64,000 bases of DNA, from NCBI RefSeq assembly GCF_964340395.1, contig NC_135557.1, positions 4,556,216 to 4,620,215 on the forward strand. The letters run 5' to 3'. The stretch comes from Glandiceps talaboti. Lineage: Eukaryota > Hemichordata > Enteropneusta > Spengelidae. The notes beneath the pieces were generated by a model that was given only the letters and a program-made list of their open reading frames with translations, was not told the DNA's origin and searched no databases. This document shows positions 5,626 to 63,545 of this stretch, piece by piece. Every line of letters starts with the position of its first letter. Position 1 is the stretch's first letter. The position numbers were made by a program, and so were the translations under genes.

Positions 5626-6422
5626 TTACAAGGTTAACACTGTGATGTAGTCAAAGACATAGTCATAGACATTCTGTGTAATAAAAATCTTGGTTGTCTT
5701 TTCGTCACTGATTTCTATGAACCAAGGTTCCACTATGTGAGAGAGTACAACTACAAACTCTCCCTTCTCTGTTACCATAACAACTCTATCATTGCCATAA
5801 TCACAAATATAAATATTATTTCTTTTATCAACACACAGTCCAGTGGCATAAAAGCTGTGATCATATGAAGATATAAACTTTAGATTTGAATCATAAAAAT
5901 TTATCCCTTTGTAATGTGACATAACAACCTTCTGGTCACTTGTTACAGCCACTGACCGAGGGTGTCTAAACTGACCTTTACTCTGAACTTGACCTTTAAC
6001 CTCTGTAACCTTGTCTCCCATTGTTGTGAACTTAATCAGTCTATCTCCACCCCAGTCAGTAGCTAATACAAAGTTACCCATGACAGTTATACCTTCTAGA
6101 TTTTCATTTTGACAAATAATTCTGATTATTTTCTTATTTTGATTTGTCACAATAATTTGTTTATTACCTCTATCATATATGAAATATTGGTTGTCATGGG
6201 ATACTGCTATGTCCCATGGTTTGAAGGGTTGTGGAAATTCATCTGTAAATGTAATACAATCAAGACATTGAAATTCTTTGTTTAAAATCTGAATTCGTTG
6301 ATTGTCCTTGTCACAGACCAGTAGTAAATCAGTTGGAGTCATGGCCATACCACAGGGACCGTTGAACTCTGCAGGACCTTCACCACTCCGGCCAATTCTT
6401 CCTTCTGACCATTGTGAAGAAC
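5626..6422 (-). CDS. NHL-repeat beta-propeller, terminal exon
   Basis: One exon of 264 codons plus stop, entered in phase 1 from an acceptor TTTGTAG at 6423-6424. It opens SSQWSEGRIGRSGEG, then six NHL blades can be counted: blade 1 with FNGPCGMAM and LLLVCDKDNQRIQIL; blade 2 with PWDIAV; blade 3 with TDWGGDRLIKF; blade 4 with FRHPRSVAV; blade 5 with ATGLCV and IYICDYGNDRVV; blade 6 with PWFIEI. A full six-bladed ring fits about 44 residues per blade. NHL propellers of TRIM2/3/71 type bind RNA or protein. An internal ATG at 6348 is present but would cut off the first strands, so I start at the acceptor. If not joined to the kinase, it is the tail of a TRIM-NHL-like gene whose front I cannot find. 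Confidence 0.85.
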
Positions 6423-6499
6423 CTACAAAGAGGTCAAAGGTTAAATAAAGGTAAGATATAAAAATACATTCTGAAATAATTCAGTTTTCAGAATAGAAA

Positions 6500-8130
6500 A
6501 AAAATTTCAGACATGGAATTTCATCACCATAGAAACTGAAATATATGTGGTTAGTTTTACACTTGCACTTTTTACCATCAAAATAACTTGTTGCTATGGC
6601 AACCATTGAATGTAAATATCTGATACTAGCATCTTAGCCTGTGTACATATAATACCTCTATTCACCTTTCTGTGATTAACCCCCTCAACCATGCACATGA
6701 TTTGATATTTTCATGACATTATTTTAATTATGTGTATAAACAATCAAGGAACTGTTGCCATGGAAACACATTTTCCAAGAATGGTTCAAAAATTAGTTTT
6801 TCCCTATTGTACTCATTAGGTATTAGAAAAAAAAAATTTCTAAAATATTAAATGATCCAAGATTTTTTTCACACTATGAAAGTTAGTTCAGAATTTTTAA
6901 TGTAAATTTATAATTTCCATGGCAACACAAAAATGTGTATTTTTTTGTTTTTTATTATTTATTTAGAAGCATGAAGCTACATAAGACACTTTTGGTTTAT
7001 TATTAGTTATGAAAAATTTGAATTCATACTATTTCTTTATTTTATAAGGAAAAAATGTGAATATGTTGATTGATATGTTACCATAGCAACCATAAATATC
7101 TTGGGGGGTGATATTAAGAAAAACCATGCTAGTGATTCTAAATTAGAAAATATTCAATCTTGTTTTTGAAGTAAATTACATTTTAATATAATTTCATGTA
7201 ACAGCACAAATTAGAAATATTTAAATATAATTTGTAACCATGGTAATATATTTCAAGAATTGGTGAAAAATAATCTTTGTAGAAGTAAATTTGAGGATAT
7301 TAAACTAAATACTGGGAGCTTGTTAGTTATAGGTGTTGTAATTTTAAACATGGAATTTCATCACCCTGGAATGTATATTTTTAATTTTCAATGTAAACTC
7401 TTTACAATCAAAATTACCTGTTGCTATGGCAACCAATGGCTTTAAAAACTAGTACTATTATGGTTTGTATTTATCCACTATTGCCATTTCTGTTATCAAC
7501 TATTAATATGATTTGATGTCTCTTTAAGACTTAATATGAATTGTGCGTTATTAAAGGTCTAGGAATGGTTGCTATGGAAACACATTTTCTGGAAATGGTT
7601 CAGAAATGAGTTTTTAAAAGTTTTGATTAATAAGTTTCTGTTATACCATTTATTTTCACCAGAGTCTCAAAATGAATTCAAGTTCTCTTCATACTACATG
7701 ACAATGAATTATTTATATCAGTACGTTTGTGGTTTCCATGACAACTTGAAATTTCTAATTAATGAAACTTACGCTTCTTATTTCCTTCCTTTTATCCAAA
7801 AAGACATAAAATACTATGCAATACTAATCACCATAGCAACCATACAGGTTTATCTTTCAGTTTTTAGTCAGATAAACTACTTATTCTGTTTTTTAAATTG
7901 GGTATTTATAAAACATTTCACATCACAACACATTTGAAATATTGTTTAGAATTTGTGTCCATGGTAACATATTACAAGAAATGGTAAAAAGTAATGTTTT
8001 TCATTAATTTTGTTTGATATTGTTGGATAATAGAAATACACATTATTTTGATAATATTGTAGAATGACAAGTCACAGTGTAGAGTTATAAAAAATGTTTG
8101 ATAAAAAAATGATCATTTCCATGGCAACAA
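6500..8130. repeat. Two tandem diverged copies of a 0.8 kb repeat
   Basis: Matching blocks in the same order about 720-840 bases apart: ACATGGAATTTCATCACC (6512 and 7347), GTTGCTATGGCAACC (6590 and 7420), GGAAACACATTTT (6762 and 7575), CCATAGCAACCATA (7081 and 7830), CCATGGTAA followed by ATATTTCAAGAA or ATATTACAAGAA (7236 and 7958). No gene. Related to 25395-25760. Confidence 0.65.
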
Positions 8131-10736
8131 GGAAAATAATAATTTGCAAATGTGACTTCAGTCTTCTGTGTGGAACACATTACAATTCTGCCGATGCTAA
8201 AAGTAACACCTTTTAGCACCTTCTTACACCTGTACCCATATGGTGAATAACGCCACCAGCCTATGCTTTGGGGCTATGTGTAAATAAAACTTGTTTGTCT
8301 AAACTAAGCATCTTGCTGGAACTCGTTGACACCTCTCAATCCGATAATGGTCAGTAGTTGTACCTCACATCACAGACAAGAAACTGTGTTCCTTGTCTGT
8401 GCTCAGATGTTGTACCATGGCTCACAGTCCTGCTTGCAGACGGTGCACGCGTTTCGCTCAACACCGTCCTACGAAAAGTAACCGTCCTATAGCGAGTGCG
8501 AAAACAAAATACTTTCGCACCAATAACAAAATAATTACATATAATTTTTTTTATAAAGCTATCAAATATTAGCAATCGGTCGAATATGTACTCATTTTAC
8601 ATCTTTTTGACGATAGTAGTCGCTGGTACGATCACAAAAGGTGTCAAAATCGGAACTTTTCCAGTTCCGACTGATTTCAAAGTCCCGCCTTACAAACTCC
8701 GCCACATTTGATCAAGCGTCCGCTTGGGCATAAATTTTACGATTGAACTTGTGATTTCGGGATTTCTGGTCCTCCGGACTGGGACTAGTACTTTTGTAGC
8801 CAAGGCGAGGTAAAATTACTAAATAGTCGATTTATTGCTGATATTTGAACACAGATGCGTTAAATCTTTAGTTACTACTATACTAGCATTTCAGGTAAGC
8901 CCAGGTTTCACAACTGTCTCTTTGTAGGCGACTTACTCCGTATGCAAGCAGGGCGACATGGACCCTCAGACCACTAGTGGTCAACCGGTCTGAGATGGAT
9001 CATAGACCCTACGAAATGGATGTAGCCTAGTAGAAATGTCTGTATTTGTGAACAGTAAGGAATGTCTCTCAGATAGACTGTGTCCATGACTGTACAATGT
9101 TGTGTCAATCAAGGCCTCTTCGCAGGTTTGTGAAAATGATGCTGGGGACTAATCTCCATTTCAAAAAGGGAAGTTTTTCTAACTGAAAAAGGTGTTTGTC
9201 CTGAATGTTCGATAACTTGCATTTCCGTCATTTTCTCGTCTCTGTTAATTTTAGCGACGAAGGGATATGATATTCCATAGAACGCCTTTTGTTTTATCAA
9301 TTACAAACAATAGCATGTGAAGGGCGATATAATGTTGCCTTGTCCGAGAAACGGGAAGTACACTAGCTGTTTTCACTTCACTGCTCACACTTACATTGAA
9401 GAGCTATGTAGTCAGTAATCTTGGCTAGTCTATTCTATTGTCAAACAGAATTTTCCCTCAAATTCAACATCACTGTCAGAATATATTCGAGAAAGGTTTA
9501 CAACGTTTAAACTTTATTCATCCTGGATCCAATAGCAAGTGTACATTCTTTGATCACGGATTTGCGAGTGCAAAACATTATAAAACTTAAAAGCACGGGA
9601 CTGCAATTTTGTGTTCCTTGTCTGTGTAACCTCAGATCACTGAAAATATTCATTAGTGGTCTGAGTCTGAGTTGGAACACATCTCCGTTTATAGTGCTAG
9701 TTGTGTGTATTCACTAAGCCGTTTCAATATAATAATCATATGGATGTTTTATTTTCAACATCACGCAAACCATTGGCGTCTTTTCATGGTAGCGATTAGT
9801 CTATCTGCTAGACCTCGGATGTTCTTCCGATACAATACGACACACGACCGAACATCGCTATCGAGGATGGAACATCCAAGGCAAGCCCTCACTGCGAACT
9901 TCGTTCGCTTATAGTAATTAGTATCGAAAGAAAGCACGAACATCTAGCAGCAAGATTAGGTAGCGATTTGACAGACTCCAACAAAATCGAATTTTAGACT
10001 CGAATATTACTCTTCGCACGTACAGAGTACTTTTTATAGGATAATATCATAAAAAGTGAATCAGAGCAAGCATCTAACCTAGAGTCTAAAATCAGATTTT
10101 ATCCGATAATGGATATTTGTGTAATGTCGCGTCTTCATGGGGTCAGGTGTAAAAAAGACGGGTCAAAGTTTGGAAATGTGCACTCAGAGAACTGCGACAC
10201 AACTGCTGACAGAGAGTTCTCAAATCATATTTCAGAGCTAAGGTGGCTATTGTCCTGCGTGTTCATTATAAAGCGGCCAAGTTCGCGTCACAATTTGTAA
10301 AATAACGCTACGACATTATACTAAACAATAAAGAATAAATAAGCCTTTGAAGTTTCTGTGCTCCTACTATAAATACTTCCTATGAATCTGGCCACAGCTA
10401 CTCATGTCCTAGTCTAGCTGCTAGACCTCAGGTGTTATTCCGAAGATTATGCAAATACCCGACACTTCTTTATTTCTGTTGATATAGATGATGAGGCCAA
10501 TTAACACATTTCTAACAGCTTAGCATATTAACTAACCTCGGATTTTCGAGGTTGGGAAGTTCTCAATTGGTCATACTTTAGCATCGGAGAGAATTATAAT
10601 GATTTAGTGTTTGAATTATGAAATAACTTCTTATTTTATGTTAACATTATGTGAACAAATTGTTTTGTTCCGATTACCAGACCCTGCATAGTTTTTTACT
10701 GCCCACCCTAACATTTTTTATGTATTTGAAACATTA
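8131..10736. other. Intron sequence without a supported gene
   Basis: Somewhat less AT-rich. A 14-base palindrome GACCACTAGTGGTC (8969-8982) sits inside outer arms CTCAGACC/GGTCTGAG (8965-8994). A direct repeat, GCTAGACCTCGGATGTT and GCTAGACCTCAGGTGTT, lies near 9807 and 10420. Short open frames at 8351, 9109, 9672 and 10109 match nothing known. Confidence 0.45.
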
Positions 10737-10744
10737 CCCTTACA

Positions 10745-11140
10745 AAACTGAACTGCTAAGTTAACAGTTTGCAGGCCTGTGAACTGTTAGTACTAACAGT
10801 CGAACTGCTAATCTTAACAGTTGTTGGAATATCTTAGCAGTTAGAGAAATTTCTAAAAATTTGAACTGCTAGTATATTGCTCTTAGCATGTAAAGCACAA
10901 GTTTAAACTGCTAATATGAATGGCCCTTAGCAGTAGCAAATTCTGCATGCTAAGCCCAACTGCTACTATGACTAGGCCTTAGCAGTTGAAAACTGTGCAT
11001 GCTAAGTGCAACTGCCAAAACTGGTTTTATGACTTGGCCTTAGCAGTTGCAGATTCTGCATGCTAAGCTCAACTGCTACTATGACTAGGCCTTAGCTGTT
11101 GAAAATTGTGCATGCTAAGTGTAACTGGTGTAGTAGCAAA
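10745..11140. repeat. Subterminal AGCAGTT / GCATGCTAAG array, left
   Basis: Imperfect short repeats in both orientations: ACTGCTAAG, CTTAGCAGTT, GCATGCTAAG and ACTATGACTAGGCCTTAGC recur every 60-80 bases. The same vocabulary reappears at 15465-15770 on the other side of the BEN gene. Confidence 0.75.
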
Positions 11141-12008
11141 AAAATAACAGTTCGAAGTACTAGAACAGAGATCTCTGAATATTTATACTGTGTTTTGTTT
11201 AAATCTGGCCTGTGGTTGCTGTAACAGTGTAACATTTGAAATCTAAGTCATTTATTAACTTATGTAAAAATTCCACATTGATGTTAGACAACGTTTTACA
11301 ATAACCAGTTTGCAGTTTAATACATATTGGTTTATTAATATCATATCATATTATCATATCAAGTACAGCTAAAGAGCATGAGCTGATCAAGAGTCAAATA
11401 CTAAAGGTACAACAGTCTAGAGTTCACTATATTTATCGTGTATCCAGTTACTACTACAGTTTTGCAACTATAAATACAAGTACAAAAAAGAAATACTTAT
11501 ATTCCATACAATATTTTCACGAGCTTTCTTTTGTTTAATTGGGAGTTCGTTAATCATCAAATAGGCTGACCACATGCTCACTCTCGAACACAGCAACTCC
11601 ATCGCGATCGGTGCAATTGCCTCCCTTTTTACAGTGTATCCTAGCTCTGGATGGAACGACGTGTCGAACATCGTAGCGCATACACCCAGAGCTGTGTACC
11701 CCAACAACTTAAATGGGTGAGAATACGTAACGTAAATGGGTGAAGTATGACATCATAAAATGTTACCAGTCGTGGTCCACACGGAAGCCCATGGTATTTG
11801 ATTGATACACTATTGAAAAAGAGTTACACTCGTGCATCATTGCTACTATGCAGACGATATAAATACGTGAAATAGGGTTGGCAATTTAGCAGTGGATTTT
11901 GCTACATGAGATATACGAATATTTGACCTATGACCCAGTTGAAACTGGCCAATCACTTTGCTTGCCGCGTCTTTTCTTCCAACGGACAGTGTACGTATGT
12001 GATTCAAC

Positions 12009-12216
12009 ATGGCAGCCTCGCACATTTTCGTCCAACTGTATTTCCCTTTTGACAGTACATTGATCATAAAAAGGGCCGATGAATTAGACGACGATACAAA
12101 TGTCGAAGTAGGAGTGAGGGTTACATGTAACTTCGAAACAGAGGAAATAACTGAAAGTGGCGAAGCGGTAGTTCACCCACAAGAATACGAGGGAGTGGTG
12201 GTATACCATTCGGCGG
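12009..12216 (+). CDS. BEN gene exon 1 (N-terminal acidic segment)
   Basis: Start ATG in good context (CAACATGG), 69 codons and one base, ending at a consensus donor GG/GTAAGT in phase 1. The peptide begins MAASHIFVQLYFPFDSTL, continues IIKRADELDDDTNVEVGVRV and ends EYEGVVVYHSAG. It is acidic. N-terminal segments of this kind precede BEN domains in many invertebrate proteins. The upstream 300 bases are relatively CpG-rich, as in promoters. Exon 2 begins in phase 0, so another small exon or alternative site is needed between them. Confidence 0.6.
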
Positions 12217-13301
12217 GTAAGTTATCTTATTTCAACCCACATTTGATTTCCAATGTCTGTTGTATTACCTGACATATATGGTTATGATAAATTCTGTGAC
12301 AATTTTAACATCTTACAGTTAATAATAATAAGGCTTTTTGATCAAAGATTCATACACATGGGTTGCGTTATTCAACGTTCGGGACGCAATGCATTTGCCG
12401 TTGACTTGTCACCTGTGAGTCAGTCCTTGGAACCATCAGTGTTCAATGTCATCAATGACTGTTACAGTGTACTACTTTGAAGAGAGATTGGAAACATGAT
12501 TTTGAAGAAAGAACAATATTAAAACAATGAAAAATAAGTGACCATGTACAAAGACAAAGTATGACATGGCCACAGTGCATTGTCACTGATACGTGTCACA
12601 GTAACGAGCTCGAGAGAATTTGGTAAATTAGTGCAGACTTGCATAACGTCATCAAAGTAATGCCGTTATTATATCAGATCTTTAGTTATCTGTTCAAATT
12701 TAATCCGAAAACCTGCTAGCTGTAGTTTAACATCGTAAATTGTATGATGCTGAATTACCTTCAAAAATTGCGGGAAATGATGCCACAAACTATTTCACAG
12801 TTTTGGAGTGCTCAGCAGTGCTATGGCAAGTCTCATGCACCACAGGTTTCATCAAGACGATATTCCTATGTTTAGTTTGCACATTTCTGTTTGTTTTGAA
12901 ATTGTTCATGCCCTTGATATTTATTTTCAAAGCATTGCAAATTTTCTGTGAAAACTATCAAAGACTGACTAGAAAAAAAGTCTGAGACTGAGAAAGAACA
13001 TTAGTTTTTCGTTCAATTATAATCTGAAAACATCCTTTCTAAACATAGTGTGTATGTGTGCTTGGATTTATTATGAAAGAATGTGTTTTTTTTTAAAATG
13101 TATGGATATGAGTGATAATACATGTAGAGTGTGTTCACATTGAATTACAGTTATTATTACAGAAACGAAGGTTCTAATTTTTTTTTAAAGAAGAGGAAAA
13201 GAAATTCCCTTACACATAAACTTAGCTTGTGTTGCTTTAAAAAGTAACAATCCTTCAAGTTAAGGAAGTTTATACTTAATCATATGTTGTTACTTTTGCA
13301 G

Positions 13302-13416
13302 GAAAGGATTCTTGTTAAGATTAAAAACAGCCCTAATCTATATGGTGATGTCAAAGTCTCATCTTTAAAGCTGTTCAAGGCAGAGAAGAAGGCTTCATAG
13401 TCGAAAGATTATTTTG
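13302..13416 (+). CDS. BEN gene exon 2, with an in-frame TAG
   Basis: Acceptor TTTTGCAG, then ERILVKIKNSPNLYGDV and SSLKLFKAEKKAS in the frame that runs on into the BEN exons through donor TTTG/GTGAGT (phase 1). In this frame a TAG stop at 13398-13400 precedes SKDYFG. The phase match to exon 3 argues that this is the right frame, so the allele here is probably broken, or the stop ends a shorter isoform. Confidence 0.5.
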
Positions 13417-13877
13417 GTGAGTAAAATATATATGACACTAGAAGAAATATTGGCTTATCAACAATTTGTTTTATAACTCACACAGGCCGACTATTCTTTA
13501 CACTTGAGAACAGCGAGTTACAACTGTCACAATTATGATGTTTATTTTTAGTCCCAATCAGATGAAGTCCAGGATGAGGACTTATACAATAGGGTCCATC
13601 CGGAGTCATTTCTCAGACATGACTGAAGTGATTTCTCTCAAACTTTGCACAAGGACAACATACTATGGAATACATATGCACTTGGTGCAATGTTTCTAAA
13701 AGTGTTCTTTTCCTAAAAGAATCAGCAAAATTTGCTCTAGCAACCATGACGCACCCTTAGCAACAACCAAATGTCAGTATTTTATTTTTGTCAACACATA
13801 CTAATTTTATTTTTGAGTAATGATAAATATGTTTTGTTTAGTTTTTTGACATTTTTTTTTGTTATCAATATCTGTAG

Positions 13878-14012
13878 GTGTTCTATTGAATGAACTGATT
13901 GACATCGTCTTCACCTTTGAAGAGCTTGCAAATAGTTGTGGCATTGGGAAGCGGTTAAAGAGAAGTGGTGTGGAATCTAAAGTACCCTTCGACAGCCATC
14001 GAATCGAGGCAA
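13878..14012 (+). CDS. BEN domain, first half
   Basis: Exon of 135 bases after acceptor TCTGTAG. It encodes VLLNELIDIVFTFEELANS, CGIGKRLKRSGVESKVPFD and SHRIEA. This fits the BEN-domain pattern: a leading helix, F-T-x-E-E-L-A, a glycine and basic stretch, then LDP-like residues and a helix. BEN domains bind DNA and chromatin in BANP, NAC1, BEND proteins and some DNA viruses. The donor region AAGTAAGTAAGTAAG offers three GTs four bases apart; only the first keeps the frame into the next exon. Confidence 0.7.
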
Positions 14013-14922
14013 GTAAGTAAGTAAGACAATTAAAAGGAGCAATGTATATTGATAATTATTTATCTTGTATTACAGTGAACCAAGATATTAACATGCAATG
14101 TTATATTCGTGCTATAGGAAATCAAGTTGATTATTCACATTTAATTTTAGAGCCAACAAGGTATTCAGTGTTGTTTGTGCACATAAACAATGTGTTGAGA
14201 ACAATGAAATTTGACATTGGGCTACTGTAAAGTACACATACAGTGCATTAAATAAAAATTTGTTTCTCCTTGTGCCATGATAGTGATGGCAGTCGATAGT
14301 AACACTGTATGAAAATGTTATCCTGAGTCTGACTTGCATCTAAAATAATTTACATCTACGGTCACACAGTTTTATTTTCATGTTCATGATTGGGCATAAA
14401 ATTAAAACTGCCTAAAAATAATTTCCAGTTTCATAGTATTACCTGAAATAGAGTTACACACCCAAATAGAGGCGTAATTGTCATAAAATCAAGCAACCGC
14501 AAACTTAAAGAAAAAAGAAACCGTCTGATTTTGTGCAGCACAAATATGCCAACTCCACTAATTGCCGGATCCCATGGTTCCATGCATAGCAACAAATATA
14601 CTTGTTCCACTCTGACCTCAAGTGTGGCATGAAATATGGCATAGCAGCTATTTGGATTGCTTGAATTTACATTATTTACTAGACTACAGATGCAAATGGA
14701 TGTCTAATGAGCAATGGTTGTTTCTTTGGATTTACTATGCATGTAATAACCCATTTGTCAGCTTTTTGTGTGTAAGATATAATATGCATTATGAGTTTAA
14801 TAAGTTGATTTTTAACAAGTCACTATAACTTTAAAATGCAAATGCTTGAGCTTGGTGTTCCTATGAAAATGCATCCGTGACTTCAATCAGATACTAATGT
14901 ACACGTTTTGTTTTATCTATAG

Positions 14923-15074
14923 AGTACCTGTTAGCGAGAGAACAGGATTCCGGAATGAAATATGACATCACAGAGACAGCTTTCAATAAAAAAGTTACCA
15001 ATAAAATAAGCAACGCAAGATGTAAGCATGACCTGGCAAGACTGATATCTTGTAATACCGGTAGTTCCCATTGA
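14923..15074 (+). CDS. BEN domain, second half and C-terminus
   Basis: Acceptor ATCTATAG. Joined in phase to the previous exon it gives AKYLLAREQDSGMKYDITE, then TAFNKKVTNKISNARCKHDL, matching the last helices of a BEN domain, and stops at TGA 15072-15074. A possible donor (AGAT/GTAAGC near 15020) lies exactly at the usual end of the domain, so the last codons may instead be intron. As a DNA-binding protein encoded inside an element it could bind the AGCAGTT arrays, but that is speculation. Confidence 0.65.
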
Positions 15075-15464
15075 ATGTTTTAGAACAAAAATTCTTGTTT
15101 TTCTGTAAGTTTTGAGCCTGTATCAAAGTGATTTTTAGATATATCACTTCCAATTGTACTTTATCATCTATATTTAGTTCAACAGTATAGTAACAAGAAG
15201 TAAATAAATGAAGATTTCTTAGTATATTTTGATTCCGTGCAGGTTTATTGTGTATGCAAGTTCTGTAGTGAAGTCTAATCTGGTGAGTAGTGGACATCCT
15301 TTTAAATATGTATTCAAAGAGGTAAAAAAAAAACAATTGCACTTCTACATCACATTCATGAAGTGGACTCACTGGCATATATTTTGTGCATTTGCAAGCT
15401 GTCAAATTCAAGTGTACTGCTGAATAACAAACTGTATACAGGCTAATATCTTAACCTTTACATG

Positions 15465-15770
15465 CAGGCCTTGCTAGCAGTTGAACTGCTAAGCTCATTT
15501 AAATATTTCGGCCTATACGCATGCTAAGGAACTGCTAGTGAACTGTGAAGGCTTAACTAGCAGTTGAACTGCTAATCTTGAAGGTTAAGGAGCAGGCCTT
15601 GCTAGCAGTTGAACTGCTTAGCTCATTTAAATATTTCGGCCTATACACATGCTAAGGAACTGCTAGTGAACTGCTAAGGCCCTATGTACTGCTTATGGGC
15701 AAAAATAACAGTTTGAAGGTTAATATCTTAGCCTTTACATGCTAATATGAAGGTTAAGCGCAGGCCTGCA
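15465..15770. repeat. Subterminal AGCAGTT array, right
   Basis: Contains two near-identical 130-base blocks with CTAGCAGTTGAACTGCT, ATTTCGGCCTATAC and GCATGCTAAGGAACTGCTAG, then the right inverted end of the element. Partner of the array at 10745-11140. Confidence 0.75.
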
Positions 15771-15831
15771 AGTTTTGTAAGGGAAACTATTAGTTAAAAA
15801 TAAAAAGAATTGTGAAGTCTCATGAAAAGTA

Positions 15832-16219
15832 GTGGATAGAGAAACTGACATCAACTTAAAAACGACAATATACAAAATGTATACAACTGTTCTTCTAATC
15901 TGTAATGGCTGTAGATCAGAAACTGACATCAACTTAAAAAAGACAATATATACAACTATTCTTCTAATCTGTAATGGCTGTAGATCAGAAACTGACATCA
16001 ACTTTAAAAAGACAATATATACAACTGTTCTTCTAATCTGTAATGGCTATAGATCAGAAACTGACATCAACTTAAAAAAGACAATAAATACAACTGTTCT
16101 TCTAATCTGTAATGGCTGTAGATCAGAAACTGACATCAACTTAAAAAAGACAATAAATACAACTGTTCTTCTAATCTGTAATGGCTGTAGATCAGAAACT
16201 GACATCAACTTAAACAAGC
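15832..16219. repeat. 69-bp satellite, left block
   Basis: About five copies of a 69-base unit (starts at 15919, 15988, 16057, 16126, 16195) containing TTCTTCTAATCTGTAATGG and CTGTAGATCAGAAACTGAC. Because 69 is divisible by three, both strands stay open for 23-residue repeats. This is a by-product and not evidence of coding. The array resumes at 19801. Confidence 0.92.
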
Positions 16220-19200
16220 GACCTATCGGTCAGAATACCGTAGCTCCGCTGTTTTTTTTATTTTATTTTTTATTTTGGTGACATGTAGAAGTGGTTCAGT
16301 TCTTCAGCTCTTTACTATGCAGTTTTGTTTTAGCGATGCAATAAAGTGGTTAGTGGTTTCATATGATGTCTCACTATAAAACACATTTTACACAGAAGTT
16401 GGTAATGTATTGTACTTTTATACCATAGTCACCATTTTATAACAAAAATCTACTGTTATGAAAAATTGCACAAAATCTCAGGGAAAAAATGACTGGGAAA
16501 TGCACACAAGAAAAAAAAGAAAAAAAGAGGATTTGGAGGTTGGCTATAAATAATTCCAGTGTCTTACAGCTTTAACCCTGGAAAATTTTAATGATGAATG
16601 AAATAAACTAGGGATCTAAAATAATTTTGAGGCAATTTGAATTTCAATTTTCTAACAAATTTACCAAGTCAACAACATTCAACTTGTACTAGTTGTAGTA
16701 GATATATATATATAGGGAAGAAATGTATTAATCGCCATCTTAGTTTCCGTACGGCGACAATCCCCAAGTACCCGAAAGAGAGTCATTCTCAGCCAACAGG
16801 GTTCGACACTGGAGTAAAAGTCACTATCCCACAGGACTAGTAAAATTGATAACGTAGTAGTCCTGCAAAAAATTTGGTGGTCCTATCTTTAAGTGCTTTC
16901 GCTTGTTCACTTAGGCTCTTCATCTCTCTTCGTTTTTGCTCTACTTCTAATTCACTTTTCCAAACCCCATATTTATTTCAAACACTGTTGTAATTGAACT
17001 GTCTATTTTGTTGTAGTTGTTTGTGCATCATCAACTCCTTACTGTAATTTTATTCTCTTTTTTATGTTTTGGAGCTTCTTCTCTTTTTTTTGTTGCTTTC
17101 TGTGAGTAGTTTGTCTTAAATGGGGGGGGGGGGAGTAATAAGATGTTATGTGGTCTTATTTCTAGCTTAAATACTACATAACATTTCTGGTACACATTGA
17201 TCTAACTATTGCATTTTTAAAAGACAAAAAATTACCTTCCCATAGAGCAAGTCTTTATAGTGTTGTCCTTAGTGCATATTAGAATGTATTTACAACATAA
17301 AAATAAATAAATTTGAAGGTTACCAGCAGTTACAGCAAAATTTTGTTACTAATTACATGTACAAGTCACTTCGTCTATTTTCGTGTCTATGTACTTCCGG
17401 GTTGACATAAACGTTAAACGTGATACAGTCGGCCCTATAATTACTAAGAAATGACAAAACCGTTCGCAAAATAAAGTTCAGGATTTTAATTTTTCAAACT
17501 GAATACCAAAACATGAACACGGAACACGGAACACGGAATCGTGTTACTAAGTAAGTTAGCAGTTTCATTGTAGGCTGTAAGTTGTACCGGTAAAAAAAAA
17601 ACGATCATCACATGTAGGAAGTACAAAAACATAGAACACGTTGTTTTCTTGCTGAATAAACTCACTGAAATAACAACACGGTCAAATTGCGTCTTCGATT
17701 TTGACAGCCACCATTGTTATGATTGAGCTTCACTAGTTCCGTTGAACGTGGCCGGGCGAACGCCGACATCCAATTTGTACAGCGTTTTTACAAAGGGAGC
17801 TCGTCAATAACCTACCGAATAATTAACTCAGAAACGTAGTTTAAATACTAACTGATCTAAGAATTACTGTTCAGAAAGACTACGCATCCGTACATAAATA
17901 CGAATTCATGCAACAAAGATTTCAACTTTACTATTTACTTGTTACAGTGTAGAGGACTTATTATACACATATCATCGTACAACTAATTTTATTGGCTATA
18001 ATATTAGCTACATTTGAAATGTCTCACTTGATTGGCTCATCGTTCGCTATTCCCGTTTTCAAGGGACATTCCGCCAGAATAAAGTGCCACGTAGTACAGC
18101 AATGGCGCGAGATCGTCTGTTGGGCGACTTTCCCACCGGGTGTGCTTTTCGAAAACTACACAACACATGCTTTTATGACACGGAATCATAGAAAATCTAC
18201 CCCGTTTCCAAACTAATCGTAATTTTATCGCGAATAGACAACCGGAGTTGGTCAAAATAGCAAATTAAAAATCAAATGAATTTTACTATGACCGTGAATT
18301 CATCATATAGCCGGTGGTTTGAATTCTGAGCTCCCTGATATACCTATCGAAAAGTCACTATCCGGTCGGACTACCTACAATGGGCATTTTATTTAGTAAC
18401 CTTTACTGGTACATGGTCCTTACAGAAAGTTACTAGACTCGCGGGATAGCGGACCAGCGTGTATGTCGAACCCTTGCCATACGTTACAGCATAGACCCTC
18501 CTGGTTACAGTGGTAACACTCATTCATGTTCGATTACCTTTCATAAAGAAAACACAACGAAATGGTTGAAGTGATCTTTTTTTTAATTTCTTTTCATCAC
18601 AACAACAAAATCTGCGCGATCAAAAGTGTTGTAAACTAAACCAGAAAGAATTATCGGGCTGGCTAAACTTCCCGATGAACTGGAGTAAGGTCCAAGTCCA
18701 AGTAAGCCCCGATAGTACGTGAGAAAATCGTCTCAAACTAGCGATACAACTTTCAAAATATAACTTGACATGTCTTCATTTGTTAGAGTTATACAATTCA
18801 AGACGGGGTTTCACTCGAAAACAACAATTCTGTGAATAATGACACTGAACGCAGCGATTTCTCGGACGATGTTACCACTGCACTGTAACATATGGCTGAC
18901 AACGACTTGCTTCTGGGTTAGTCCCTCGTGCATCCGGGTACTTGGGATTGTCGTGCATTATTACCACATCGGCAAGTTTGACGCTGTAATTTTGCCACCA
19001 ATATTGATCGTACAAAAACAAAACTCCATAAATGAACTACAAAGTACTTTCCCTTTCAAAATGTGGTAATTTTAGAAAGAGTATTATCGTTTTTATTGAC
19101 GACTGACTCTGTCAAAAACACTTCAGTTCAGGCATGGAAGACTTCTCACAATGATCATATACTAGAATGAACCATTCTGTAGGAGGGGTGGTGTGTGAAT

Positions 19201-19801
19201 TGGATTTGAAGTTTACAAACCTTTTTCGAACAAATATTTGTCATTTGGGCGCACAATGCATAGAATTAAGACTATAGCACATATTACATTGCTTGTTTGA
19301 CGTCAATAGTGTCTTTTGAAAAGTTGCACTTTACCTAAAGTCTCGCGGACTGATTTCCAATATGGCGTCGGTCATTATGCTCATTAACATATTCATTTTT
19401 TTTTCAAATTTCAAAAAAAAAAATCATAAAAAATAGAAGAGAAGACGTGCTGACTTGAAATTAACAAATCTAAGTAAGCTACCCCCTGTGCATCAACACA
19501 CCAGATATCAAAGCAATCTGACTTAAAGTTTATGAGGAGTTGATGAAAATGTCATTTTTGGAAAAAAAATCATAAAAAATTGAAAATGGCACAGATCAAC
19601 TTGGCATGAACAAATCTGAATAGCCTCCCCCCCCCCAGGGAACATGCACACCAAATATCGAAGTATTCTGGCTGTTACTTTCAGAGAAAATAGTGAAAAT
19701 ATAAAAGTTTGACGGACACCTATGATTCACTCTACTCTCTATACCTCAATACCCACCTATACCTAAAGCTACGCTTTCAGCTTTCGCTGACAGCGGAGCT
19801 A
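16220..19801. mobile_element. 3.6 kb insertion in the 69-bp satellite, 12-bp inverted ends
   Basis: The satellite breaks off near 16219 and resumes at 19801. A 12-base perfect inverted repeat, TAGCTCCGCTGT at 16241-16252 and its complement at 19790-19801, lies near the borders. A second inverted pair (CGACAATCCCCAAGTACCCG near 16755 and its near-complement near 18937) lies inside. A possible 7-9 base target duplication (TTAAACAAG / TAAAAAG) is degenerate. I find no convincing gene in it. Short open frames near 16637, 17992 and 18839 match nothing I know. Class unassigned. Confidence 0.5.
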
Positions 19802-20285
19802 AAAAGACAATATATACAACTGTTCTTCTAATCTGTAATGGCTGTAGATCAGAAACTGACATCAACTTTAAAAAGGCAATATATACAACTGTTCTTCTAA
19901 TCTGTAATGGCTGTAGATCAGAAACTGATATCAACTTAAAAAAGACAATATATACAACTATTCTTCTAATCTGTAATGGCTGTAGATCAGAAACAGATAT
20001 CAACTTAAAAAAGACAATATATACAACTATTCTTCTAATCTGTAATGGCTGTAGATCAGAAACTGATATCAACGTAAAAAAGACAATATATACAACTATT
20101 CTTCTAATCTGTAATGGCTGTAGATCAGAAACTGACATCAACTTAAAAAAGACAATATATATACAACTATTCTTCTAATCTGTAATGGCAGTAGATCAGA
20201 AACTGATATCAACTTAAAAAAGACAATATATACAACTGTTCTTCTAATCTGTAATGGCTGTAGATCAGAAACTAACATCAACTTA
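19801..20285. repeat. 69-bp satellite, middle block
   Basis: About seven copies of the same 69-base unit as at 15832-16219, ending in ACATCAACTTA at the next insertion. Confidence 0.92.
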
Positions 20286-20488
20286 GGCTGCTTTCACAAA
20301 AACTTGTTAGGGGGGGTCGGGAGATTTTAGGGGGGGGGGGGGCTTGAAAATATATGGATAGTGTGTGTGGGGAGGGGGGGGTACCTGAAAAAATGTTATG
20401 GGTTGTAGGGGGGTACCTGTAAATAAATTGACATCATGACTTTTCAAACATGGGAAAATAAGCTTTTAAAATGTTGGTCTTCCTTTTT

Positions 20489-20489
20489 C

Positions 20490-20532
<43 letters not shown>
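20489..20532 (+). repeat. (CAA)n microsatellite
   Basis: About fourteen uninterrupted CAA units inside the transposon at 20286-22776. Confidence 0.95.
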
Positions 20533-21224
20533 GCTACAAACAACAGTTGCTCACAAGTTAGTAAAATGAAAAACAAAAACAGCCAAATTTTGATTTTCTT
20601 TTAATAAACTGTTAGTTAATGTAATGATAAATTGAAATGGGCGAATTGAGTGGTACAGATTGTTTTTTGTCTGAAAATACCAGTGTCATTCATGTACACT
20701 ACTATCTACTGAAATTTGGTTCATTTAATGTGTGAAATTACCTTTACACTGTACTGAAAATATTCTTTGTGACATAACTGTGTTTTGGTTTGTGGTTTTC
20801 ACAATGATATGTAACTTTTTCATGTAAATTCTTACTAGTATTAAATGACAGACAACATTTTACATTTGTAGCTCTTGGAAGTTAAAAAAAAAAGAGTTGG
20901 AAAAGGTTCATCTGCCATCAAAATGTAAAAGATGCACCTGCACTAAAACATACTTGACAAGTATCAAAAACTTCTGTGAAAGGTATTTTTTCATCCTATA
21001 GATATGACTATAATTTTCAACACAAACTTTTAATAACACATTCTAAATATTTCCTAAAATTAGCATATTGGCAACGTCTGCTACATGTGAAACAGAAGAC
21101 AATATCTCACAAGCTGAGTTAACAGATAAAAAGTAAAATAACTTTTTTGCACATACTTTTCAACTTTGCATGAATATACTATTACTTGTAAATATAAAGA
21201 TAAATAAATAAACTTTGACACTAT

Positions 21225-21832
21225 ATGGATGTATTCTCAACACCATTAACAAGAGATGATGGTAGTGAAAGACCACCAGATGACTTCCAACCCCGTGCAC
21301 AACTAAAACACCTGTATAGTAAAGGGTTAGTGTCAAGTAAAAATGTTGAGAAACTTGACGAATTGAGCAAGAAACTGTGTGTCAAGAAAGAGATATTAAA
21401 GGGAGCAATCCTTCATTTAGAACAACAGAGAACACTTGCCTCTATGAGGGAAAGAAAAAGAATGAAAGAAAGGGAGCAACGTGCTGAAAAAAAATTGATG
21501 AATATGACTGGGATGCGCTTGTCAAAAACAGTGACATTTCCAGATTGAAAGTTAAAGACCTTGATAAGTACCTTACCAACTATGAAATTCCAGCTGTGGC
21601 AGGAATGCACAAAATAGACAAAGTTGAGGCTGTAAGATGCCACTATTATCAATCTAAAGAAAGTGAGAGTGATTTGTCATCTGATGACAGTGACAGTGAG
21701 AATGATGATACAGCTAGTTCCAACTCTGATGAAGTTGAAGGAGAAATTGGGTTTGATGATGATGATGACAATGCCATGTTTATATACACAAGATCTGGAT
21801 GGAGAGCTACCACTTGGAAATCAAAAATTTAA
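21225..21832 (+). pseudogene. C-terminal part of a transposon-associated SAP-like protein, one frameshift
   Basis: The first frame from 21225 encodes LTRDDGSERPPDDFQPRAQ, LKHLYSKGLVSSKNVEKL and a basic coiled stretch. Near 21490, in a run of eight A bases, the reading shifts to a frame giving YDWDALVKNSDISRLKVKDL and DKYLTNYEIPAVAGMHKIDK, then an acidic Ser/Asp tract and a TRSGWRATTW tail. The second part has the form of a SAP-type DNA-binding motif. The order DDGSERPPDDF, basic region, YDW, SAP-like motif, acidic tract, TRSG tail recurs in uncharacterised proteins of corals, fish and molluscs as I recall them. I do not know a function. An AATAAA overlaps the stop. One frameshift makes this copy defective unless the A-run is a sequencing error. 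Confidence 0.6.
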
Positions 21833-22776
21833 ATAAACACATTCTGAGACTTTGTTTAAAATCCTGCATTCACCTTTGTAATCTAACGTCAAAACCAGTC
21901 CAATAATCAGGCTCTTACAAGGTAAATGTATTACCAGGTTCATTAAGATATACAATTACTATGATAACAGGGCCATCTTAATTATCATTACCACTAATAT
22001 ATATCACTTGATTCCTATTCTGTTAGATGAAATGTGGCTGGCATTTTTGAGTCAGACATTTATTTTCTTTTGACATTTTATTGAACTAATTTACATCAAA
22101 CAAGAACAGGATACATGGCAATGCATTTTATTAAGAGTGTTTTCAGTGTTTAATATTTAGACCAATTTGATTTCTTTTAGCACACATTTAGGAAACTGAA
22201 CTGGAACAATACAGTATAAAACTCTCTTTCATGCATCACAATATTTGCAAATACAACTAAAATGACATTCAACTGTAACACTACTAGTATAATGTACTAA
22301 TACAATATTGAACAGAAAACAAAGACTCAGTTGGTCTGCTGATCATTTTACAATAGTTATTCAAATTGTAATTCATTTGCAAGTATATGTTGTTTTTTTG
22401 GAAAGGCAATGCACTGGTTAACATAACATTTTGTTTTAACTGGTGTTTGTGTATATATATACACACAATATACAAATTGATTATATATATAATGGACAAA
22501 GTTGGTATGTACAGTTTTGTACTTGGTATGGAATGTTACAGCACAGGAAGAGTATTCCAAAAAAAATTTATTCAGGTGGGGGGTACTTGAAAATTTATTC
22601 AGGTGGGGGGGGGGGGGGGGGGTACTTGAAATATTTGGGGCTTTGGCAGGGAGGGGGGGGGTACTTGAAAAATTTTGGAATATGGCAGGGGGGAACTTGA
22701 AAAAAAAATTAGGGTTTTACAAAAAATCTCCCGACCCCCCCCCCCCCCCCCCCAACAAGTTTTTGTGAAAGCAGCC

Positions 22777-22814
22777 TTAAAAAAGACAATATATACAACT
22801 GTTCTTCTAATCTG
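22777..22814. repeat. 69-bp satellite fragment
   Basis: Thirty-eight bases of the satellite, from TTAAAAAAGACAATATA to TTCTTCTAATCTG, between the two transposons. Confidence 0.85.
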
Positions 22815-23816: not shown

Positions 23817-23853
<37 letters not shown>

Positions 23854-25352: not shown

Positions 25353-25394
25353 CAATAAGTCTGTTTGGGTAACCTCAGAATACAAACTTTGATT

Positions 25395-25862: not shown

Positions 25863-25896
<34 letters not shown>

Positions 25897-47700: not shown

Positions 47701-48481
47701 CATAGTAATGAAATCTATTAAAACTTACCCATAGTTTCACTGGGTTCACCTCCATAGTAATGAAATCTGTTAAAACTTACCCATAGTTTCACTGGGTTCA
47801 CCTCCATAATAATGAAATATGTTAAAACTTACCCATAGTTTCACTGGGTTCATCTCCATAGTAATGAAATCTGTTAAAACTTACCCATAGTTTCACTGGG
47901 TTCACCTCCATAGTAATGAAACCTGTTAAAACTAACCCATAGTTTCACTGCGTTCACCTCGATCCATAGTAATGAAATCTGTTAAAACTAACCCATAGTT
48001 TCACTGGGTTCACCTCCATAGTAATGAAACCTGTTAAAACTAACCCATAGTTTCACTGCGTTCACCTCGATCCATAGTAATGAAATCTGTTAAAACTTAC
48101 CCATAGTTTCACTGGGTCCACCTCCATTATAAGTAATGAAATCTGTTAAAACTTACCCATAGTTTCACTGGGTTCACCTCCATAGTAATGAAGTCTATTA
48201 AAACTTACCCATAGTTTCACTGGGTTCACCTCCATAGTAATGAAATCTGTTAAAACTTACCCATAGTTTCACTGGGTTCACCTCCATAGTAATGAAATCT
48301 GTTAAAACTTACCCATAGTTTCACTGGGTTCACTTCCATAGTAATGAAATCTGTTAAAACTTACCCATAGTTTCACTGGGTTCACTTCCATAGTAATGAA
48401 ATCTGTTAAAACTTACCCATAGTTTCACTGGGTTCACTTCCATAGTAATGAAATCTGTTAAAACTTACCCATAGTTTCACA
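41727..48481. repeat. 52-bp minisatellite, about 130 copies (6.7 kb)
   Basis: Unit of 52 bases, for example starts at 41881 and 41933: TAGTAATGAAATCTRTTAAA, ACTWACCCATAGTTTCACTG, GGTTCACCTCCA. Main variants are CTTACCC versus CTAACCC, CTGTT versus CTATT, CACCTCC versus CACTTCC or CATCTCC, and rare insertions (CATATAAGTTTC, CTCGATCCATAG) shared by small groups, showing local duplication of multi-unit blocks. On the minus strand the CTTACCC form reads GGGTAAGTTTT, a consensus splice donor. Decayed units run on to about 48780. Confidence 0.97.
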
Positions 48482-49004
48482 TTGGGTTCCCCTCTAAACA
48501 GTTTTAATATACTTACATTGGCTTCCCCTCCAACAAAGAATGTGTTAGAGTTTCAAAATAGTTTCATTTGGTTCCCTTTTATAACATTGCAATCTGTTAG
48601 GGTGTCACAATAATTTCATTGGGTTCATTCCATAAAAATTAACTCTGTTGGAGTTTCACCACAGTTAGATTGGGTTCCCTCTATAAAAATGTTTCGTGAT
48701 ACATGAATAGCTTCACTGGGCTCCCCTCTGTAACAATGAAACCTGTTAGAGTTTCACCATAGTTTGATTGGGTTCCCTCTACAAAAATGAACTCTAAGTT
48801 TTACTATAATTTCACTCCCCGCCGTAACAATAAAATCAAATGTCAAGTTGGAGGTCAACGTGTGTTTAGATGATAATTTCTTAACTTTCCATAATGTGTT
48901 CTGACAAAGAATAAAAGGTGATGGAATGTTTGCAGGACAAACTTGAGGTAGTGTGAAATGGTCATTAGCTCTAGACAACTAACATATGACAAGTAAGTGA
49001 GAGG
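48482..49004. other. Decayed edge of the 52-bp array and spacer
   Basis: Contains five or more strongly diverged units (GTTAGAGTTTCACCATAG, TTGGGTTCCC) until about 48840, then 160 bases of unassigned sequence. Confidence 0.55.
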
Positions 49005-51082: not shown

Positions 51083-51254
51083 CATCCTCTTTCACAGCTA
51101 CTCTTTTCAGGAAATCCTGCGCAAGAGCCTCAACTTCTTTCACTCCTATCTTTGGTTTAACTACATCGGCTTTACTGACTATTTTCTTCTCTACTTGTGG
51201 TATTTTGGGTTTGGTAGCACTTCTATCTTTGCCCTTTTCTCGGCTAGCTTGAGT
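51083..51254 (-). CDS. Linker exon, Lys-rich, between kinase and NHL modules
   Basis: A clean internal exon: acceptor ACATTACAG, 57 codons open without stop, donor GATG/GTAAGT. It starts in phase 0 and ends in phase 1, matching kinase exon 6 upstream and the NHL exon downstream. The peptide begins TQASREKGKDRS and contains KPKIPQVEKK and EALAQDFLKRVAVKED: a basic, probably disordered stretch followed by a predicted amphipathic helix. I recognise no domain. It lies between two large minisatellite arrays, so its conservation as an intact exon is notable. Confidence 0.65.
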
Positions 51255-57227: not shown

Positions 57228-57266
57228 TTATTTTTGTGCTTCCTCCAGATCTTCAGACTGTATGGG
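57228..57266 (-). CDS. Possible alternative terminal exon giving a kinase-only form
   Basis: A good acceptor (GTTTTTCCAG) is followed in phase 0 by PIQSEDLEEAQK and a TAA stop. Spliced to exon 6 it would end the protein at about residue 321, just after the kinase domain. Another frame stays open from the same acceptor for about 50 codons to a stop at 57116-57118, but that frame does not match the phase of exon 6. No AATAAA was noted just downstream. It is an alternative last exon or a chance acceptor. Confidence 0.35.
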   Translation of the reverse strand, partial: PIQSEDLEEAQK

Positions 57267-57505: not shown

Positions 57506-57546
57506 CGTCAAGCTTTCTGTGATTTCCTTCAACGTTAGTAAAATAA
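57506..57546 (-). CDS. Kinase gene exon 6: last helix of kinase domain
   Basis: A 41-base exon completing helix I of the kinase: VILLTLKEITESLT follows RPYFR across the junction. Acceptor TTCTAG; donor ACG/GTGAGT is near-consensus. It ends in phase 0, so both the exon at 51254 and the short exon at 57266 can follow it. Confidence 0.75.
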
Positions 57547-59243: not shown

Positions 59244-59393
59244 CACGAAAATATGGTCTCTCGTCTGGAGTTTGACTCCAACACTTCTCCATAATTTTCT
59301 TCAATTCTTCAGGTGCATCAGGTGGTATAACACGAATATCTGGTCTCTGACCACCTTGAACTGCATTGTACACCAATGCAGAGTTGACAGCAG
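59244..59393 (-). CDS. Kinase gene exon 5: helices G and H, RP motif
   Basis: A 150-base exon encoding the C-lobe: an ALVYNAVQGGQRPDI segment, then KKIMEKCWSQTPDERPYFR, the conserved helix-H W and the RP arginine that pairs with the APE-equivalent glutamate. Acceptor CTACAG; donor CGTG/GTAATT in phase 1. It matches TKL-kinase C-lobes over its full length. Confidence 0.9.
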
Positions 59394-59645: not shown

Positions 59646-59695
59646 CTGAATATGGAATTTGTCTTGACAGTACCTCCCAGGTAACTATTCCAAAA
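59646..59695 (-). CDS. Kinase gene exon 4: helix F
   Basis: A 50-base exon coding SFGIVTWEVLSRQIPYS, helix F of the kinase, closely resembling RIPK2 (TWEVLSR). Acceptor GTCAG before TTTTGG; donor CAG/GTATG. It starts in phase 2 and ends in phase 1, agreeing with both neighbours. It is too short to be found except by homology and phase. Confidence 0.88.
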
Positions 59696-59963: not shown

Positions 59964-60063
59964 CTGTAGACATCAAACTTCTTTGTAACTGGACAGGTAT
60001 AATCGGCCAAGTGTTCTGGTGGAATATGTGAGATTGTTCCATATTTTCTTGTTGTTTTTGTTT

Positions 60064-60095
<32 letters not shown>

Positions 60096-60145
60096 GGAAT
60101 CGTTTGAGTCACGCTTTTTACTTTAGACAAACCAAAATCTGCAAT
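59964..60145 (-). CDS. Kinase gene exon 3: DFG motif, poly-Thr activation loop, PPE
   Basis: Codes residues 169-228. It opens with IADFGLSK (DFG 171-173), very like RIPK2, then an activation loop holding ten consecutive threonines (186-195) and four more nearby, then the P+1 region GTISHIPPEHL, in which PPE replaces APE. The Thr run is encoded by ACA-type codons seen on the plus strand as a TTG repeat at 60062-60094. The exon ends in KKFDVY plus AG in phase 2 before GTAAAT. Family members carry Ser/Thr-rich loops here, but a microsatellite-encoded homopolymer is unusual. Confidence 0.9.
60062..60094 (-). repeat. Coding trinucleotide repeat (Thr codons) in exon 3
   Basis: TTG repeat on the plus strand, read as ACA codons on the minus strand; it encodes the Thr run in the kinase activation loop. 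Confidence 0.95.
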
Positions 60146-61697: not shown

Positions 61698-62004
61698 CTT
61701 TATTGTGCCGTTTTCGTCAATCAGCAAATTTTCCGTCTTCAAATCCATATGATAGATTCGATATGGTCCCAACGTGTGCAGAAAATTCATCCCCTGACTG
61801 GTTTCATAAAGGAATTTACTTCTCTTTGCCCATGAAAGGTGAACATCATCTCGTTTTAAAAGAGAAAACAGAGATCCACGAGCCACAAATTGCATAACAA
61901 TACCATAATACCTTGGTGCCATGCATACACCATAGAATAGTACAATATTGGGGTGATGTACAGAGGCAAGTTTTTTGGCTTCTTCAATGATCGCTGTCTT
62001 TTCC
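61698..62004 (-). CDS. Kinase gene exon 2: helix C, hinge, catalytic loop
   Basis: Codes residues 66-168. The helix-C glutamate lies in AIIEEAKKL (residues 70-78), followed by HHPNIVLFYGVC. The hinge reads YGIVMQFVARGSL with methionine (M103) at the gatekeeper position, where RIPK2 has threonine. The catalytic loop is HMDLKTEN (151-158): the proton-acceptor Asp153, Lys155 and Asn158 are present, while the usual Arg of HRD is Met, as is often variable in RIPKs. Acceptor is CTAG before G-GAA-AAG; donor is AAG/GTATAA in phase 0. All residues needed for activity are present. Confidence 0.9.
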
Positions 62005-63348
62005 CTAGAAAGGTAGACGAAATAGGGATATAAAGTTGACGTTACAAAATCAATATTTCTTTTGGTAAATGTGTCAACACCTTTTGATCTACTACGTCAA
62101 ATACTGCAAAACAATAATTGCTATTCAAAGTTTTTGAAATGTTGTATTTTTATTCACAAAATATCAAATAATAAGTGGAAGAAAATAAAAAAAATCCAAA
62201 TAGACAATTAAGGTGTTAGAACTTAATATTAACATTAATAAAGTCAATGAATGGTTAGCTCTATGTAGTGGATGTACAAGGATATTCAAGTACACTTATG
62301 AAATAAATGTCGGTACATACAAAACAACCTAAATTTTAGCTATGTGAAGCTCCAAGGACTGAGAGAGTGTAATAAAAGTTTAATTAATTTGTTCCGTGTC
62401 AGCAAATGTGATAAATTTAATAATATAATCTTCATAATTTGGTTCTCAAAACGTATATTTGACACGGTAAAATACTGCAAAACAATAATTCTGTTCAAGA
62501 TTTTTGAATATCAAATAATATGTGAAAGAAAATAAGAACCACTAAAAAGACCAGAAGGTGTTAGAACTTAAAGATCTGTCATAACCAATTCTTTCTTTAA
62601 AGTTAACACATGGGTTACTTTATCACAATGTTAATGATTTAGAGAAGGGAAGTACGTACAAACAGCAGCTTAATTAATATGCATACACCGTGTGTGTCAC
62701 CAAATATTAAAATTTTCGTAGTATTGTCCATAAAATACTATGTGAACTTATTGTTAAGAAATACATTCCTCGGATATCAATTGGCAATAACGAACACCCT
62801 ATTTCTTCTATTATACTTGTACTATTACAGCAGCACTAGCTGAACCTGGGATTGTGTTGTCTGAAACGTGTCTTGTCGGATATAAGTTACTTGATAACAA
62901 TGATATATACATGTAGTACACCCTGGAGAGTGTAAAATCACCTGTGCGTAGCTCTACCCGTAATATGGAACAGTAAATTCGAACAAATTGTCCAGGCCTG
63001 CATTCTAAAATCTGCACCCTAACACGATTTTTATCTGTCATAAGAAAGTTTTTTTATGAAATAAATTAAATTAAGTTAAATATATAAATTGGACCTCTAA
63101 TTAAAATATAAACTGTGCATAGATTGTTGACTGACCGAAAGAAATTATACTCCAAGCCCGTTACAACTAGTATTGGGTCAAAACGCGTACAGAATCATTT
63201 AATAACAGAGTCAGGTGAACGAAAACAAACCTTATTATTATGTCAATAATGTATGTAAGAAAATAAAAATATATTTGAAAACGGGAGTTATTAAAACCCA
63301 GCACGGTATTGAATCATAACTACTGTAATACAATAGTGATTGACTTAC
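62005..63348. other. Kinase intron 1
   Basis: No gene supported. It contains an imperfect direct repeat, 62099-62226 and 62471-62571, sharing TACTGCAAAACAATAATT and AAGGTGTTAGAACTTAA. An exon-like stretch at 62943-63036 is out of phase with both neighbouring exons. Confidence 0.6.
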
Positions 63349-63545
63349 TTTTCTGTTATTTTACTATATAAATAACATTTCTTGACAGCTACATCCATCA
63401 CCCAGTCATTATGTTTGGCAAGGTACACTTCTCCAAAACCACCTGATCCTATTGGTTCGTCTGAATCATAGATCAGTTTATCTTCATCAATTATACGAAA
63501 ATTGTGTAATTCTTTTTTGATGTCCCCAGCTGATGCTGTCGCCAT
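63349..63545 (-). CDS. Kinase gene exon 1: start codon, glycine loop, catalytic lysine
   Basis: Codes residues 1-65 plus two bases. The start begins MATASAGDIKKEL. The glycine-rich loop IGSGGFGEV is at residues 32-40 and the VAVK lysine is K55, the ATP-anchoring residue. The exon ends at a strong donor (GTAAGT) in phase 2. The start is the first ATG of the open frame and sits in a CpG-containing palindrome. No in-frame exon was found upstream. The short N-terminal tail before the kinase domain is typical of RIPK proteins. Confidence 0.9.

Follow-up and report, generated by a model that had tools for sequence, protein, structure and literature searches.

Whether a RIPK-type protein kinase can be joined in one chain to an NHL propeller is the question raised by a 64,000-nt stretch of the genome of the hemichordate Glandiceps talaboti (contig NC_135557.1, here contig C10; C10:4556216-4620215; this whole stretch is the window in what follows), in which the two parts are separated by an intron of 44.7 kb. 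We searched the 590 Mb assembly (47 contigs) for relatives of this gene, called copy A. Judged by gene structure, copy A is a member of a small family of tandem duplicates, with copies A and B on C10 and copies C and D on contig C26, three of them being complete genes. It is probable, in our view, that copy A encodes a cytosolic sensor kinase, composed of a RIPK-type kinase, a basic linker and a six-bladed NHL propeller of which one face is diversifying.

Gene structure and collinear copies

Copy A consists of eight minus-strand exons running from 63545 to 5626 (197, 307, 182, 50, 150, 41, 172 and 797 nt in order), which add up to 1896 nt, or 632 codons (631 residues and a stop). All of its introns (1344, 1552, 268, 252, 1697, 6251 and 44660 nt) are bounded by GT-AG, and the entry phases of the exons (0,2,0,2,1,1,0,1) all match. 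Exon 1 (63349..63545) contains the start codon, the G-loop and the lysine of VAVKK, leaves in phase 2 and has homologues in copies B and C. Exon 2 (61698..62004) extends from the N-lobe to the non-RD catalytic loop HMDLKTEN. Exon 3 (59964..60145) carries DFG, PPE and between them a Thr-rich activation loop, where an ACA repeat (window 60100-60040) encodes a Thr run; the loop is shorter in copies B and C and lacks the run. The C-lobe is encoded by exons 4 (59646..59695) and 5 (59244..59393), and the kinase domain ends in exon 6 (57506..57546), which exits in phase 0, matches copy B at 95.5% of its DNA and is 41 nt long in copy C as well. The linker exon (51083..51254) adds 57 residues of basic character, entering in phase 0 and leaving in phase 1. 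Exon 8 (5626..6422) encodes the six-bladed propeller and the stop codon, and is followed by an AATAAA (5236..5241, minus strand) that is conserved in copy B. Thus, the eight exons of the original prediction, with their coordinates, strand, splice sites and 632 codons without remainder, were all reproduced in the window sequence, and the linker indeed takes up the phase in which exon 6 exits and leaves in the one that the NHL exon needs.

Since exon 6 leaves in phase 0 and the NHL exon must be entered in phase 1, an in-frame join requires a linker exon. In the interval separating these two exons, no other open exon of 100-300 nt on the minus strand reached the splice scores of the linker, and the plus strand offered one such exon, which did not bridge the two phases. 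Looser scores admitted eight open exons, three of them bridging: the linker and two 100-nt exons within a duplicated segment. Under a first-order Markov null, an equally good bridging exon appeared in 2 of 150 runs when lengths of 150-300 nt were allowed and in 9 of 150 for 60-300 nt; the score thresholds in these tests were chosen after the fact. A codon score as high as that of the linker was reached by one of 188 intronic open windows, which came from open reading frames (ORFs) 57 codons or more in length and lay for the most part away from tandem arrays. When left out of training, the linker still had the highest minus-strand codon score outside the other exons, under a weak codon model that placed three of the eight exons (exon 2, exon 6 and the NHL exon) below zero when they were left out. 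By themselves, these splice, Markov and codon tests of the linker are only suggestive.

More direct evidence comes from the paralogous copies. A kinase exon of copy A had a second match on C10, 81% identical. By tblastn over 204 kb (the window and the adjoining 140 kb, a small part of it masked) we identified copy B, a tandem paralogue on the same strand, 18.5 kb below the window, with kinase exons, linker and NHL exon in the same order. The eight exons of copy B keep the phases of copy A and encode 618 residues, and its GT-AG introns measure 1397, 758, 291, 2642, 2118, 1617 and 4586 nt (the last lying between linker and NHL exon); its linker is 94.7% and its NHL domain 85.7% identical to those of copy A. 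There was no third copy in these 204 kb, nor in 80 kb more (40 kb on each side).

A genome-wide search with the kinase gave at least 75 exon matches, and the stretches around some of them were examined. On contig C26, two loci (copies C and D) have kinase exons, then the linker end and then the NHL exon on the same strand, with the linker end 55.6% (27 residues) and 58.8% (17 residues) identical and the NHL exon 62.0 and 63.5%. Copy C is a complete gene of 575 residues with exons of 170, 307, 146, 50, 150, 41, 64 and 800 nt, GT-AG introns (2213 nt between linker and NHL exon), the same entry phases as A and B (0,2,0,2,1,1,0,1) and a single stop, at the end. In copy D the kinase exons, linker and NHL exon are collinear too; we did not recover its first two exons, and part of that stretch reads N. 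The C-terminal end of the linker is retained in C, D and one further locus, locus E. Altogether, seven kinase loci were examined (A to E and one each on contigs C8 and C18): four have the NHL exon, one has only the linker so far and two have neither.

The recurrence of this order in three further copies of the same genome (B, C and D) upholds the join that had been deduced from exon phases, and we conclude that, at the level of gene structure, the kinase-NHL fusion is real. The collinear copies led us to reject chance agreement of phases, or an assembly join, as the origin of the arrangement. A misjoin within the 44.7 kb, an outcome against which the original prediction had itself warned, and a mere neighbourhood of two genes are both very unlikely, because B, C and D are collinear and the long intron is mostly an indel and a satellite (see below); the window sequence itself contains 0 N.

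Kinase, propeller and the variable face

The spliced chain of copy A matches the Pfam protein kinase family at 1.6e-52. Among solved structures its kinase is closest to RIPK2 (163 bits), followed by RIPK4 (151) and RIPK1 (144), and RIPK2, RIPK4 and RIPK1 account for all of the 26 best-scoring distinct PDB sequences. By this sequence match to RIPK1/2/4, rather than by phylogeny, the kinase domain falls in the RIPK family. The catalytic motifs GxGGFGEV, AVK, HMDLKTEN, DFG and PPE are all present, as expected of the complete kinase claimed for exons 1-6, and they include the set that predicts an active enzyme (G-loop, VAIK-type Lys, HxDxxxxN and DFG). The catalytic loop is non-RD (HMD); non-RD kinases are typical among innate-immune kinases. 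In exon 5, residues 253-270 differ between A and B at very high rates of both synonymous (pS 0.46) and non-synonymous (pN 0.36) change, resembling a gene-conversion tract.

The description of the gene as RIPK2-like holds for the kinase domain alone and fails for the whole protein, as the C-terminal CARD of a RIPK2 orthologue was not found. Pfam detected no CARD, death domain or ankyrin repeats in the 631-aa model of copy A, and no CARD turned up in the 40 ORFs scanned out of the 63 minus-strand ones (60 aa or longer) that lie from 6481 to 57400, a search that split or shorter CARD exons could escape. In NCBIfam, only kinase and NHL models responded, far under their cut-offs. Among prokaryote and viral contigs, the kinase found one bacterial kinase locus (L001) at 28% identity, and the NHL exon found nothing.

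The NHL part is recognized by Pfam at 7.8e-16 in three stretches of the spliced chain. The solved structures nearest to the NHL exon alone are Thin and TRIM71, then designed propellers, TRIM3 and TRIM2, with PknD (1rwi) lower. A single-sequence model of this exon is almost all beta, with a mean predicted local distance difference test (pLDDT) score of 51.6 and a predicted template modelling score of 0.52; a fold search with this low-confidence model gave the NHL domains of TRIM2, Thin and TRIM3 as best matches. Together with six blade registers set by eye, these results agree with the six-bladed ring that had been proposed. The domain is acidic (isoelectric point (pI) 5.4; 27 K+R and 33 D+E), and its frame has no Met before blade 1, the first one lying inside that blade. 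The preceding linker (residues 309-366) has a pI of 9.85, with 15 K+R and 9 D+E, and visual inspection, in place of a membrane-span program, revealed no hydrophobic stretch in it. Simple RING and B-box patterns had no match in the six frames of the window; where a TRIM-NHL protein has RING, B-box and coiled coil before the NHL domain, copy A has a kinase joined to the NHL exon.

The b-c and d-a loops form the top surface of NHL rings. We counted the b-c loop as the four residues following the conserved blade Asp or its equivalent (D+1 to D+4), a zone that was chosen after viewing the A-B alignment; in blades 1-5, the low-confidence model would put most of these residues between its strands b and c. 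Between A and B, the residue after the conserved Asp differs in all six blades, and 12 of the 24 zone sites are changed against 3.4 expected (0 of 20,000 permutations); in the four-copy alignment, the A-B count is 11 of 23 against 3.2. The C-D pair, which provides an independent test, gave 7 of 20 against 1.9 with the register taken from A (p 0.00085), D+1 differing in three of five comparable blades. Positions -24 to -16 showed no significant excess between A and B (11/54 against 7.7, p 0.11). In blades 1-5, non-synonymous differences between A and B occupy 21/97 sites in the b-c and d-a loops versus 12/422 in the rest of the blades (p 4e-9). The loops also exceed the intron beside the linker and NHL exons (45/795, p 1e-6), a pool that omits the more diverged introns 1 and 3 (35/457 and 31/252), and the excess persists against all five intron pieces (111/1247, p 0.0003).

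If copy A is a sensor kinase, the face built from b-c and d-a loops would bind a ligand that differs among the copies, and binding would cluster or release the kinase, which might then autophosphorylate in its activation loop and signal like RIPK family members without a separate adaptor. A varied face would fit a changing ligand, e.g. a microbial or self-recognition molecule. It is from the position of the loop differences, on the top surface, that a ring controlling the attached kinase is favoured and an RNA ligand ranked low; the ligand, expression and pathway of the protein are what we infer here. We suggest tentatively that these genes represent an animal family of cytosolic receptor kinases whose NHL ring, diversifying on one face among tandem copies, acts as the direct sensor of a RIPK-type immune kinase.

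Several observations weigh against a sensor kinase of this kind. The fused protein is a prediction from gene structure, and at the mean pLDDT given above the propeller model is poor, which makes the fold match weak evidence. Not every related locus has the ring: locus E (C10:4064434-4069991, plus strand; L028:5726-5842) has kinase matches and a linker with its end motif kept (42% over 45 residues), and no NHL match better than E 0.1 was found in 18 kb, of which some 12 kb follow the linker, so that the exon may lie further along or have been lost; the kinase loci on C8 and C18 had neither linker nor NHL exon in 10 kb examined at each. The loop excess was weaker for A-C (12/20 against 6.6, p 0.01) and for B-D (10/20 against 6.5, p 0.07). 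The A-B loops are rich in synonymous change as well (3 of about 23 sites), and the two classes therefore do not contrast significantly there (Fisher p 0.56). The ratio of non-synonymous to synonymous change (dN/dS) is 1.03 (0.56-2.2) for the A-B NHL domain and 0.71 (0.44-1.13) for the kinase; the linker, with five changes, has a value of 1.1. The last 46 codons of the ring (16/110 non-synonymous sites) are raised in both classes and lie outside the contrast of loops with framework. Such clusters could also result from gene conversion with diverged copies or from relaxed constraint, and diversifying selection is not fully separated from these two processes.

The most serious competitor, although a rather unlikely one, accepts the fusion and regards the propeller as a scaffold that sets oligomeric state or docks partners, the loop differences having arisen by conversion and relaxed constraint. 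A dN/dS of about 1 in the NHL domain, the raised synonymous differences in the loops and the conversion-like tract in the kinase all suit it, but the loop zone is also prominent in the second, independent pair (C-D), and the framework differs less than the introns do (12/422 vs 111/1247). That the ring binds single-stranded RNA as Brat, LIN41 and Mei-P26 do, and thereby turns the kinase on, is improbable. The solved NHL relatives include RNA binders, and NHL proteins that bind RNA are reported to do so through a charged, in fact positively charged, top surface (PMC9070667); here the ring is acidic, with fewer basic than acidic residues, and its variable sites lie on what would be the RNA-binding face. 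Of the original proposal of a ligand- or RNA-binding propeller, RNA is therefore the weaker half.

Two further explanations concern the gene itself. Copy A might be decaying, damaged by the expansion of its last intron to 44.7 kb and of the poly-Thr run, with B still active; the intron is 44,660 nt against 4,586 in B and the long Thr run is confined to A of the two, yet the frames and splice sites of A are all intact and its poly-A signal is kept, and we give this explanation little credence. Least probable of all, to the point of being nearly discounted, is that there are two adjoining genes, or only short kinase transcripts, with the NHL exon belonging to another transcript. Three places could provide a short end. 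A candidate terminal exon (57229..57257, minus strand) would give a short kinase ending in SEDLEEAQK, and a transcript ending at 57228 had been named in advance as an outcome that would undo the fusion; it is disfavoured, as the exon has no match in the surrounding 204 kb, copy B included. No AATAAA follows it between 57228 and 55000, and the ORF over it (57119-57319) has no Pfam family and a negative codon score. An acceptor near 50920, just after the linker, leads into a frame that is open in A and disrupted in B by a 5-bp indel. Read-through of the linker would reach an AATAAA at 50998 that is conserved in B, and such an end is possible as a minor isoform; AATAAA is generally frequent (71.9 expected by base composition). 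Against separate genes stand the collinearity of B, C and D, the lack of RING and B-box patterns in the window and an NHL frame without its own Met before blade 1.

The last intron and neighbouring features

The difference between the last introns of A and B (44.7 kb and 4.6 kb) is explained for the most part by a 33.8 kb indel and a satellite of 52-bp units. The A-B alignment runs to window position 41043 and resumes at 7259; the indel (7260..41042, minus strand) corresponds to about 12 bp in B and may be either an insertion in A or a deletion in B. A giant transposon is a possible source, for which no terminal inverted repeats were found. The satellite array (41728..48494, minus strand) comprises about 130 copies over 6.8 kb, with no B match listed. 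Other arrays in the introns of A, at 51458-56184 (58-bp), 48998-50451 (31-bp) and 60386-61581 (49-bp), have counterparts in B. The last intron also contains a 5-kb tandem duplication (30136-35582 vs 35179-40697, 91.4% identical) with a 59-bp satellite at its borders. At 21219-21832, plus-strand ORFs in two overlapping frames score high for coding potential and match the SAP domain weakly, below the Pfam cut-off; they are probably a mobile-element relic.

Downstream of the NHL exon, a broken integrase-core fragment (Pfam rva_4) lies on the minus strand at 1660-2223. The window contains no Rfam family at gathering scores and no tRNA.

Comparison with known systems

As far as checked, the combination of a RIPK-type kinase with an NHL propeller in an animal is new. 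Among the literature matches listed, which were a part of all those found, no metazoan kinase with an NHL domain was apparent by title or abstract, in line with the novelty originally claimed; subscription journals and unnamed predicted proteins lie outside this search. In the accessible parts of four papers (PMC3160408, PMC2575513, PMC3137616 and PMC8195603), no kinase-NHL protein appears beyond PknD as a modelling template.

With RIPK2, RIPK4 and RIPK1, copy A shares the N-terminal kinase, the linker followed by a further module and the non-RD catalytic loop; their C-terminal modules are a CARD, a death domain or ankyrin repeats, whereas that of copy A is an NHL propeller. One account describes RIPK members as sharing the kinase and carrying CARD, death, RHIM or ankyrin parts (PMC11507063). 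The RIP-kinase homologues of amphioxus are similar in having joined RIPK kinases to new modules (LRR, death, SH3, ZU5 and Zalpha; PMC9573974), but NHL is absent from the main text of that paper. The TRIM-NHL proteins (Thin, TRIM71/LIN41, TRIM2/3, Brat and Mei-P26) have the same kind of propeller, and differ in that copy A has a kinase in place of their RING and B-box.

RIP kinases typically relay signals from separate receptors through adaptor domains (CARD, death and RHIM). If our interpretation is correct, copy A would combine sensor and kinase in a single animal protein chain, and NHL rings would be used beyond TRIM ligases. That there is a small family, whose ring face varies, raises the interest of the case beyond that of a single fusion.

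The closest parallel in architecture is mycobacterial PknD, in which NHL repeats (six of them in M. tuberculosis) come after the kinase; PMC1262709 describes this order for PknD and for a Deinococcus kinase. In PknD a membrane span separates the kinase from the ring; copy A lacks one as judged by eye, its linker being short and basic. Because of this linker without a span, and because the kinase is of RIPK type, convergence appears likelier than descent as the source of the resemblance. The animal protein would thus be comparable in its logic to plant receptor-like kinases, and in its architecture to bacterial PknD.

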